DNA of 64,000 nt from the NCBI RefSeq assembly GCF_028368935.1, contig NZ_JAQNDK010000001.1, forward strand, positions 372,001 to 436,000. The letters are read 5' to 3'. Every line of letters starts with the position of its first letter. The stretch's first letter is position 1. Positions 10,024 to 48,092 of this stretch are shown one piece after another. Both the position numbers and the translations under genes were made by a program. The notes beneath the pieces were generated by a model that was not told where the DNA came from, did no database searches, and saw only the letters and a list, made by a program, of their open reading frames with translations. This DNA comes from Sorangium aterium (GTDB lineage: Bacteria > Myxococcota_A > Polyangia > Polyangiales > Polyangiaceae).

Positions 10024-11784
10024 ATGCCGTCGACCGATCATCCCAAGGGGCCGAGGCGGCTCCGCCTCTGGCCGCCGGCGAGGTGGCTCCGCGCTGCGTT
10101 CGCCTTCGCGCTCGTGTTCGGGTGCGCCCTCCTGGGAGCGAGCGCCGGAGAGCTGTCCCCTCCGCCGCCCCCGCCGTCGCCGCCGCCGCCCGCGGCGGGC
10201 GCCGAGGCCGGCCCTGAGCCGGAGGCGACCCCTGTCGCGCCCGACTCGCCTCGAGCCTCCATGCGCAGCTTCGTCGAGCTGTGCCGCGCGGGCGATTACG
10301 CCGAGGCCGCGCGCTACCTGGACGTGCCGCCGAGGGCGAACGGCGCGGAGCTCGCGCAGAAGCTCAAGGCGGTGCTCGATCGGCACCTCTGGCTGGAGGT
10401 GGAGACGCTCTCGCCGAACCCGCAGGGGGACACGCAGGACAACCTCGGGGCCGGCGTGGAGCAGCTCGGCAAGATCCCGACGCGGACGGGGCCCCAGCCG
10501 GTGCGCCTCGTGCGGCGCACCACGCCCGACGGCGTGCGCTGGATCTTCTCGCGCGCCACGGTGGAGCGCGTCGATGAGTGGTACGCACGGCTCGAAGATC
10601 GCTGGCTCCGCGATCACCTGCCGCCGGCGCTCCTGCGCCCCGGCCCGCGCGAGCTGCTCTGGTGGCAGTGGCTCGCGCTGCCGGTCCTCGCGCTGGCCGG
10701 CTGGCTCGTCGGCGCGGTGCTGAGCTACCTCGTCCGCGCCGCGCTCCGCCGCGTCATCGCCCGGACGGAGTCCACGCTCGACGACGTGCTCCTCGGGGGG
10801 GCGCGCGGTCCGTTCACGTTCGCGGCGGCGCTCCTGGTGATCACGGCCGTGCTCCCGTGGCTCGGGCTGTACCTGCCGGCCGAGGAGTTCCTCGGCCAGG
10901 TGCTGCGCGCCGGCGTCTTCGTCGCGGTCTTCTGGTTCGCACTGCGCGCGATCGACGCCTTCGGCGGCCGCCTGCTCGCCGCCCCCGCGACGCGCGACAA
11001 CCCGGCGGCGCGCTCGCTCGTGCCGCTCATGGGGCGGATCGCGAAGGTCGCGATCGTGATCATCGGCGTGATCGCGGTGCTCTCGGAGCTCGGCTACCCC
11101 GTGGCGAGCCTCATCGCCGGCCTCGGCATCGGCGGCGTCGCGCTGGCCCTCGCCGCGCAGAAGACGGTGGAGAACCTCTTCGGCTCGGTCGCGATCGGCA
11201 TCGACCGGCCGTTCCAGGTCGGCGACTTCGTGAAGGTCGACGCGCTCCTCGGCACGGTCGAGAGCATCGGGCTCCGCTCGACCCGGATCCGCACGGTCGA
11301 CCGGACCATCGTCACGATCCCGAACGGCAAGCTGGCCGATCTCCACATCGAGTCGTTCACGGCGCGCGACCGCATCCGCCTCGCCTGCCTGCTGGGGATC
11401 GAGCGCGACACATCGCCCGAGCAGCTCCGCGCCATCGTGGAAGAGTGCGAGCGGGCGCTGCGGGAGCACCCGAAGGTCTGGCCCGAGGACGTCGTTGTGC
11501 GCTTCATCGGCGTCGGCCCGTCCTCGCTCGACGTGGAGGTGGTGGCCTGGTTCCAGACGACCGACTTCGCGGAGTTCCGGGACATCCGGCAGGCGATGCT
11601 GATCACCTTCCTGCAGATCATCGACATGGCCGGATCGAAGCTCGCCTACCCGACGCAGACGCTGCACGTCGCGCCGCGCGGAGGGGAGCGCCCGCAGCCG
11701 GAGGCGGCCGCGGCGGGGGGCTCGGCTAACGGGCGGCGCGCGCCGCGGCGGGCGCCATCGGCTGAAGCCCCGCCTTCTCGATGA
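10024..11784 (+). CDS. MscS-type mechanosensitive channel
   Basis: A 586-residue inner-membrane channel protein that should relieve turgor on osmotic downshock. The start [16 protein letters not shown] at ATG 10024 is followed by a signal or first TM ([17 protein letters not shown]), then a Pro-rich linker. The periplasmic domain (about residues 80-200) starts [22 protein letters not shown] (shown here as [13 protein letters not shown]). Several TM helices follow ([67 protein letters not shown]). The pore and beta-domain signature is [19 protein letters not shown], then [21 protein letters not shown] and [17 protein letters not shown]. The low-complexity C-terminal tail overlaps the convergent bioB by 59 bases. 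An MscS family member is certain; conductance type is not. Confidence 0.92.
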
Positions 11785-12787
11785 GCGCGCGGTCCTCGTC
11801 CTCGCCGGGGTTCGGCGTGGTGAGCAGCTTGTCTCCGTAGAAGATCGAGTTCGCCCCCGCGTACATGCAGAGCAGCTGCGCCTCGCGCGAGAGCTCCGTC
11901 CGCCCGGCGGACAGGCGCACCATCGCGCGCGGCATCATGACCCGCGCGACCGCGATCATCCGGACGAACTCGATCGGATCGACCGGGGGGAGGCTCTCGA
12001 GGGGCGTCCCCGGCGAGCGCACGAGGGCGTTGATCGGCACGCTCTCCGGGTGGGGATCGAGGCGCGCGAGCTCGACGAGCATCTCGCAGCGGTCGGCGAT
12101 CGACTCGCCCATGCCGATGATGCCGCCCGAGCAGACGGTGATGCCCGCCCGCCGGACGTTGCGCAGGGTGACGAGCCGCTCGTCGTACGTGCGCGTCGAG
12201 ATGATCGATTTGTAGGCCTTCCGCGAGGTGTCGAGGTTGTGGTTGTAGGCGTCGAGGCCGGCCTCCTTGAGGCGGCGCGCCTGGTCGTCGGTGAGCATGC
12301 CGAGCGTGCAGCACGCCTCGAGGCCGAGGGCTTTCACGCCGCGCACCATGTCGAGGACGCGCTCGAAGGCGGGGCCGTCCTTCACCTCGCGCCACGCGGC
12401 GCCCATGCAGAACCGCGTCGAGCCGCCGTCGCGGGCGCGCCCTGCGGCGGCGAGGACCGCGCCGACGTCGAGCATGCGCTCCGGCCCGACCTCGGTCTCG
12501 TAGTGGCTCGACTGCGGGCAGTAGGCGCAGTCCTCGGGGCAGCCGCCCGTCTTGACGCTGAGCAGGGTGCAGAGCTGGACCTCGTGCTCGCCGTGGAACG
12601 CGCGGTGGACCGCGCGGGCGCGGTCGATCAGCTCGAAGAGCGGCAGGTCGTGCAGGGCGACCGCCTGCTCGACGGTCCAGTCGTGGCGGGGCGCGCCCGC
12701 CGACGGGGCGTGCCCGGCCGGGCCGCCGCATCCATTCCTGTGCTCCGCCCCTTCTCGTTCGATCCCTTCGAGCATGGGCTCGCTCAT
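11726..12787 (-). CDS. bioB: Biotin synthase
   Basis: A 353-residue radical SAM enzyme that inserts sulfur into dethiobiotin to give biotin. The [4Fe-4S] ligands are in [16 protein letters not shown] (C-x3-C-x2-C). [21 protein letters not shown] follows (first part [14 protein letters not shown]), and [13 protein letters not shown] matches the BioB SAM-binding region. The mid-barrel has [35 protein letters not shown] and [15 protein letters not shown], all characteristic. The start at ATG 12787 ([18 protein letters not shown]) gives an N-terminal extension of about 35 residues over E. coli BioB; a later start is possible. The C-terminal coding end runs antisense over the last 59 bases of the MscS gene. 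It is the last gene of a long minus-strand run; other bio genes are not in the window. Confidence 0.95.
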
Positions 12788-12905: not shown

Positions 12906-13958
12906 CTAGAGCGCGGTCACCGCCTTCGCCGTCTCCTTGGCGATCGTCCCCTGGGCGACGAGCTGCCTGAGGTGCGCGTCGAAGGTCTGCATGCCGTACG
13001 GCGTGACCCCCTTCTCCATCAGCTCGCGCAGCGAGGGGCTCCCCTCCGGCCGGCGGATCGCCTCGCGCACCGCGGCCGTACCGACGAGCACCTCGGCGGC
13101 GAGGACCTCCCCCGCGCCGTCGCGGCGAGGGAGCAGGCGCTGCGCGACGACGCCGTGGAGACAGTCGGCCAGCCGCTCGCGCGCCTCGCTCGGGCTCTTG
13201 CCGAGCGCGATCAGCCGCCCGAGCGTGCGCGTGACGTCCGCGGCGCTGACCGCCGCGAGCACGAGGTGCCCGGTCTCCGCGGCGTGGAGCGCGAGATCGA
13301 GCGACTCGCCGTCGCGGAGCGCGCTGATCAGCACGACGTCCGGGTCCTGCCGCAGCGCGGAGCGCAGCGCGGTCGGGAAATCCGCGGTGTCGACGCCGAT
13401 CTCGCGCTGGCTCACGCTGGAGCGGTTGTCCTCGTGCACGTGCTCGACTGGATCTTCCAGGGTGATGATGTGGCGCGGCACGGTCGCGTTGATGTGCCCG
13501 ACGAACGCGGCGAGGGTCGTGCTCTTGCCGCTGCCGGCCGTGCCCGCGACGAGGATGAGGCCGTGATCGTGCTCCACCATCGCCCGGACCGCCGAGGGCA
13601 CGCCGAGCTCCTCGAACGTCGGGATCTTGAGCGGGATGCTCCGCAGGATGATCGCGAGCGAGCCGCGCTGGCGATAGATGTTCACCCGGAACCGGCCGAG
13701 GCCCGGGACGACGTACGAGGTGTCGAGCTCCTGGAGCGTGGCGAGCAGCTCGCGCGACGGGCGCCCGGCGAGCAGCACCCGCGCGGCGGCCTCGCTGTCC
13801 TCGGGCCGGATCCTGTCGACGCGGAAGTAGACCATGTCGCCGCGGACCCGCGCGCCCGGCGGCTGACCGACCTTGAGGTGGATGTCGCTGGCGTGGGCGG
13901 CAAGCGCCTTGCCGAGGAGCTGATGGAGGAAGGCCTCGGAGGTGTACGGCGTCGTCAC
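12906..13958 (-). CDS. PilT/GspE-like ATPase with altered catalytic motifs
   Basis: A protein of about 350 residues from GTG 13958 ([16 protein letters not shown]); an upstream GTG at 14009 is also open. The N-terminal domain has [18 protein letters not shown], the usual PilT/GspE beginning. The ATPase core has Walker [11 protein letters not shown] and the Asp box [14 protein letters not shown], then [25 protein letters not shown] (in parts [12 protein letters not shown] and [12 protein letters not shown]). Where PilT has a Gly-Glu in the Walker B strand followed by MRD, this protein has [12 protein letters not shown], so Glu is replaced by Ala. Where PilT has the His box GTLHT, it has LAAVSAADV. 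The loss of both residues suggests weak or no ATP hydrolysis. No pilin genes adjoin; the pilin locus is 33 kb away. Family call good, function unclear. Confidence 0.82.
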
Positions 13959-14090
13959 GGGGGGCAAGGTACCAAATTGGAACCCGACCGGCCCAAAGGG
14001 CGGCTGCACGAAACGAAAGCGCAGAGGGCGCCGCGCCGCCGCGCGGGACGGCCGCGCGCGCCGGGACCGCCGCGACGGCTGCGCGGGACG

Positions 14091-16321
<2,231 letters not shown>

Positions 16322-47474: not shown

Positions 47475-48092
47475 ATGCGTGCAATCAAGCGATATGACAG
47501 GAGAGGCTTCACGCTCGTCGAGCTCATGATCGTCGTCGCCATCATCGGCGTCCTCGCCGCGCTGGCGATCTACGGCGTGCGCCGGTACCTCGCGACCGCG
47601 AAGACCTCGGAGGCCAAGAACACGGTGGGCGCGATCACCCGCGGTGCGGCTGCCGCCTACGAGCGGGAGAACGCCGCCGCGGCCATCTTGGGCGGCGGCG
47701 CCACCTCGACGGCCGCAAGCCACGAGCTCTGCGACTCGGCGACCGATCCGGTTCCGGGGACCGTCCCACAGGGCACGAAATACCAGCCGAACTCGGCCCC
47801 GACGGCCGATTTCAACGTGGGCACCTCGACCCAGGGCTGGCCGTGCCTCAAGTTCACGATGTCGCAGCCGATTTACTATCAGTACCACTATCTCCGGGGT
47901 GCGAACAACCCCAACCCCGCCCTCACAGGCGCGCCCCTGGTCGGCGGCGGGCTGACCGGCTTCGAGGCGAGCGCCATCGGCGACATCGACGGCGACGGCA
48001 CTGCGTTCAGCGGCTTCGCCCGCGGCGGCACGATCACCAACGGCGAGCTGGCGCTGGCCACGCAGGTCTTCGTCAACAACGAGTTCGAGTGA
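47475..48092 (+). CDS. Type IV pilin-like protein 2
   Basis: A 205-residue pilin-like protein. The leader MRAIKRYDRRG is followed by FTLVELMIVVAIIGVLAAL, a textbook type IV pilin signal with Gly before the cut and Glu at +5. The helix continues AIYGVRRYLATAKTSEAKN. The C-terminal part contains two Cys residues (HELCDSATDPVPGTVPQG, WPCLKFTMSQPIYYQYHY) that may form the disulfide loop. It is a close relative of pilin 3 at 48171 (shared SEAK/AEAK and NTVGAITR/QTVGAITR, KYQPN/KYQPD, SQPIYYQY/SQPIYFQY). A hairpin follows its stop. Confidence 0.9.
   Translation: MRAIKRYDRRGFTLVELMIVVAIIGVLAALAIYGVRRYLATAKTSEAKNTVGAITRGAAAAYERENAAAAILGGGATSTAASHELCDSATDPVPGTVPQGTKYQPNSAPTADFNVGTSTQGWPCLKFTMSQPIYYQYHYLRGANNPNPALTGAPLVGGGLTGFEASAIGDIDGDGTAFSGFARGGTITNGELALATQVFVNNEFE

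Follow-up and report, generated by a model that had tools for sequence, protein, structure and literature searches.

The window analysed here, a stretch of 64,000 nucleotides from the genome of Sorangium aterium, encodes a PilT-like protein that has lost the catalytic glutamate of its Walker B motif, and the simplest account of the distribution of this loss is that the Glu was lost once, before Sorangium and its nearest relatives diverged. By score, fold, and its Walker A and Asp boxes the protein is a member of TIGR01420, and by the residues tested it is not an active motor. It is probably an extra PilT that serves as an ATP-binding regulator or a passive part of the pilus motor.

Family membership and catalytic motifs

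The gene, its motifs, and its conserved neighbours lie in the window as follows.

12906..13958, minus strand: PilT-family gene that has lost its catalytic Glu, encoding 350 aa if read from GTG 13958, its likely start
13518..13544, minus strand: Walker A, GTAGSGKST, intact in the alignment to PilT structures
13443..13466, minus strand: Asp box, ITLEDPVE, intact; Glu185 is equivalent to PilB E357, a Mg ligand
13311..13328, minus strand: atypical Walker B, ISALRD for VGEMRD (Gly229 to Ser, Glu230 to Ala)
13236..13256, minus strand: second half of the His box, AAVSAAD for STLHTPD of the family (His255 to Ser, Thr256 to Ala)
11726..12787, minus strand: bioB (biotin synthase), conserved downstream neighbour
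14091..14903, minus strand: putative lipoprotein gene, conserved upstream neighbour, with an LGC lipobox-like sequence in its translation
14786..16258, minus strand: thiC, conserved upstream neighbour

The open frame as listed spans 12906-14009 on the minus strand (367 aa, first codon GTG at 14009). Translation probably begins at GTG 13958, since the orthologues begin at the matching point (MTTPY in genome G032, MSSPY in genome G039) and residues 1-16 of the longer frame are modelled by AF2 with low confidence (pLDDT <50). The protein scores 369.5 bits against TIGR01420 (PilT/PilU family), above the curated cut-off of 319.1, and its AF2 model (pLDDT 89.9) adopts the two-domain fold of PilT, with PilT4 as the top structural match (Z 42.5 over 342-344 residues). 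Ranked by E-value in Foldseek, the nearest structure is PilT2 of T. thermophilus (5fl3), with 44% identity.

The original prediction had described a PilT-like ATPase with intact Walker A and Asp boxes, in which Ser-Ala stands for the Gly-Glu of Walker B and the His box is missing. The modelled fold agrees with this description, and alignment to PilT structures recovers both intact boxes as well as the Ser-Ala of ISALRD. The HMMER alignment to solved PilT structures runs without gaps across both altered motifs, and therefore the Glu of VGEMRD and the His of TLHT have been replaced, not displaced; a Glu or His at a shifted position, the alternative named at the outset, is thereby ruled out, with no acidic residue moved into place. 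The His box needs a finer description, as it has two His: the one that contacts the gamma-phosphate (residue 255) is lost, as predicted from AAVSAAD, whereas TGH still holds the first one, residue 248. Compared with an active motor, the protein thus has Ser-Ala for the Gly-Glu that holds the catalytic Glu, and a His pair reduced to 248, with Ser at 255.

The residue roles are known from PilB, where catalysis depends on the Glu that follows Walker B, Mg is bound by the Glu of the Asp box, and the second His touches the gamma phosphate (PMC5424180); in PilT of V. cholerae the Glu equivalent to the catalytic one is E204 (PMC6762196). From the residue roles in PilB it follows that the window protein keeps the Mg and phosphate-loop residues together with the first His, and is without the catalytic Glu and the second His; the conserved arginines are retained as well. 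In the alignments, the stretch around the atypical Walker B departs from DPDVILVGEMRD and the His-box stretch departs from the Polyangiaceae consensus TGHLVLSTLHTPD. Over 66 columns that are near-invariant among intact orthologues, the protein breaks three, and because all three fall within the Walker B and His-box motifs these losses are not due to chance. The His-box change of the window genome is known from one assembly and differs from relatives in 6 of 12 bases, in a way that small indels offsetting one another could produce, so that it may be an assembly error at this site.

Origin of the loss and selection on the gene

Orthologues were found in most of 108 Polyangiaceae genomes, and 88 distinct ones were compared for their motifs. 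Gly-Glu is kept in 80 of these, 77 with the full motif set and 3 with Pro for the second His, and is absent from 8, which belong to five Sorangium genomes, G032 (presumably Chondromyces crocatus), G039 (presumably Minicystis rosea), and G003. The sixth Sorangium genome, G019 (89% complete), yielded no copy of the PilT-like gene. In a tree of 107 proteins the eight form one clade (support 99/95), and they do so again when the motif columns are left out of the tree (SH-aLRT 90), so that a single ancestral loss of the Glu is the simplest reading. A long-branch artefact was considered and rejected, as the clade stands when either or both of the long-branch rows, L139 and L141, are removed and the motif columns omitted. 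A recent pseudogene or a sequencing error as the source of the Glu loss was likewise ruled out, because the loss recurs in independent genomes.

Within the clade, every member has Ser for the Gly, and the Glu is replaced by Ser, Ala, or Asp, the other seven members reading Ser-Ser, Ser-Ala, or Ser-Asp at this site. In place of the conserved Ala that was to be looked for in the orthologues, the eight members share the absence of Glu, and the residue that took its place varies. The loss of the second His is later than that of the Glu: within Sorangium it is confined to the window genome (one of five copies, the other four keeping both His), and it also occurred separately in G039 and G003. The joint loss of both motifs, as first described, is thus, within Sorangium, a property of the window genome alone, and the ancestral event is the loss of Glu. 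The Walker A Lys is retained in seven of the eight and the Asp-box Glu in all of them; R232, adjoining the Walker B motif, is lost in three. The G003 copy (L141) has Arg for the Walker A Lys (GQGRTT), no Gly-Glu, and neither His of the His box, and probably cannot use ATP in any way.

Related deviations were observed outside the clade. Three copies from the sister genus g15 (L113, L140, and L142) combine an intact Gly-Glu with Pro for the second His of the His box, and a PilT-like protein from Acidimicrobiia, in an unrelated phylum, (L086) reads VSELRN and SAMYTGN, with the Glu kept and the Gly and the second His lost.

The reading frame is intact in all five Sorangium copies found, which break 2, 2, 3, 3, and 4 of the 66 near-invariant columns, G229 and E230 always included, while intact orthologues break 0-1. 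The copies of G039 and G003 break 13 each and sit on long branches. Pairwise dN/dS among Sorangium is 0.13-0.36 for the PilT-like gene, close to the 0.15-0.24 of bioB and higher than the 0.03-0.12 of canonical PilT; as the values were obtained by simple counting and the genome is very rich in GC, they serve for comparison only. With so few broken columns and such dN/dS values the Sorangium gene is no obvious decaying pseudogene, and the data argue for selection on a folded, probably ATP-binding protein. The pattern in G039 and G003 suggests erosion.

Genomic setting and known relatives

Across many Polyangiaceae, thiC, the lipoprotein gene, or bioB is usually found near the orthologues. None of these genes adjoining the PilT-like gene in the window belongs to the pilus machinery, and a Pfam search gave no match for the putative lipoprotein. 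In the window genome a canonical pilB adjoins an intact pilT (C1:749069-751319), PilC-like genes and PilM are present as well, and a pilin-like N terminus was noticed at window position 47505. Distance from the pilin cluster had been offered as an argument, and it is uninformative, because pilus genes are normally dispersed in Sorangiineae (PMC6060248) and are scattered in the window genome as well. A canonical PilT with the Glu and both His is also present in G058, G032, G039, and G003, the other genomes of the degenerate clade that were read for it.

Several PilT-like proteins are known from M. xanthus (PMC6060248), and a tandem pair of further PilT-like genes was observed in the window genome at G000:C1:1956666-1958877 (L127, L136, L189, L195). 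One gene of this pair reads GTMNTPS, with Asn at the His-box position, and the other reads DADVILIGELRT, with ASFGVLV for AETGHLV. Both oddities are present in all Sorangium copies read, and the Asn also in G039, G003, and G056.

Compared with PilT, the retraction ATPase of type IVa pili (Geobacter PilT4, P. aeruginosa PilT), the window protein is alike over its whole-length fold, Walker A, Asp box, and arginines, but it is without the Walker B Gly-Glu and the second His of the His box, and its gene lies away from other pilus genes. Its closest solved relative by sequence, T. thermophilus PilT2, is likewise an accessory PilT paralogue, yet one that retains Glu and His; this intact accessory PilT alters retraction speed and piliation (PMC12393216). 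PilU, of the same family, is likewise an additional PilT-like protein and depends on PilT for its role, but its catalytic Glu is present (E202 in V. cholerae) and it is typically encoded directly downstream of pilT (PMC6762196), whereas the gene studied here adjoins bioB and the lipoprotein gene, about 365 kb from the intact pilT on the same contig. The nearest parallel in catalytic state is the E204 mutant of V. cholerae PilT, which likewise keeps Walker A and has Ala for the catalytic Glu. This mutant supports PilU-dependent pilus function and shows stronger hyperpiliation than a Walker A mutant (PMC6762196). The mutant is engineered, however, while the Sorangium state is natural, conserved in a clade, and accompanied by an intact PilT encoded elsewhere. 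A literature search of partial coverage for a degenerate PilT or a pseudo-ATPase in type IV pili found no such protein reported.

A possible role at the pilus base

What the clade does with such a protein can be read in several ways. The paralogue may have become dispensable, lost catalysis first, and decayed slowly since, with no current function. We consider this rather unlikely for the clade as a whole, and yet relaxed constraint is a real rival for the more eroded G039 and G003, with their long branches, their 13 broken columns each, and the Walker A Arg of G003. The repeated His-box losses, including those to Pro in three neighbouring g15 genomes, also speak for it, as does the distance ratio of the PilT-like protein to BioB, the median of which is slightly higher in Sorangium (1.4) than in other intact pairs (1.19). 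However, the same ratio is 3.35 in g15, where Gly-Glu is intact, so rapid change is not a consequence of losing the Glu, and that loss brings no clear increase in rate as measured against BioB. Decay also fits poorly with Sorangium copies that all keep their frame, have dN/dS well below 1, and preserve 62-64 of the 66 columns.

A protein that is still an active ATPase, in which another residue or a bound water replaces the Glu or which is an active subunit of mixed rings with PilT, seems improbable to us. The retained Walker A Lys, Asp-box Glu, first His, and conserved arginines would suit such a protein, and so would the Asp that G039 has at the Glu position, but the Ala or Ser found there otherwise cannot act as a general base, no acidic residue has shifted into place, and substitution of the Walker B Glu has been reported to abolish the ATPase activity of PilT proteins (PMC6762196). 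More doubtful still is an ATP-sensing or scaffolding role unrelated to the pilus and tied to the neighbouring genes. The order thiC, lipoprotein gene, pilT-like gene, bioB is conserved across many Polyangiaceae with no pilus gene adjacent, as such a role would have it, but most members of this neighbourhood carry the full PilT catalytic set, which means that the neighbourhood predates the Glu loss, and in Sorangiineae a dispersed pilus gene is in any case the usual condition (PMC6060248).

Our preferred reading, which we hold about as firmly as we doubt it, is a clade-specific accessory PilT paralogue that binds ATP, hydrolyses it poorly, and influences retraction, either by braking it or as PilT's passive partner. 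Its catalytic state is well supported by the residues, and its role at the pilus is one that we only infer. The nucleotide-binding regulator of the original prediction, as opposed to a motor, is accordingly still the best description, given the nucleotide-binding residues kept, the clade-ancestral loss, the purifying selection in Sorangium, and the intact PilT alongside, though its regulatory part is putative. Against an accessory PilT stand the missing pilus neighbours, a dN/dS above that of canonical PilT, the erosion in G039 and G003, and the loss of R232 in three of eight members.

As an accessory PilT, the protein would retain the PilT fold and most of the subunit interface, to judge from the residues kept and the modelled fold, and would still bind ATP-Mg, with hydrolysis very slow if any, as one would expect from other species in which this Glu has been mutated. 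It may dock on the PilC platform, or form mixed or stacked rings with intact PilT, where, locked with ATP, it would brake the motor or else be a passive partner, a relation also possible between PilT and PilU, and the outcome would be a tuned retraction of the type IV pilus. In the window genome, the His box may then have eroded afterwards, once catalysis no longer depended on it. More tentatively, we propose a dead PilT that arose in nature and was conserved in this clade: it would hold ATP but not hydrolyse it, and its dedicated task would be that of a brake or clutch in type IV pilus retraction, which would make it the natural equivalent of the engineered Walker B mutant. PilT paralogues are widespread, few of them have been explained, and the question arises what a PilT ring does besides hydrolysing ATP. 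If the reading is true, a PilT without only its hydrolysis residues, selected beside an intact PilT, would offer a direct test of a non-motor role at the base of the pilus.
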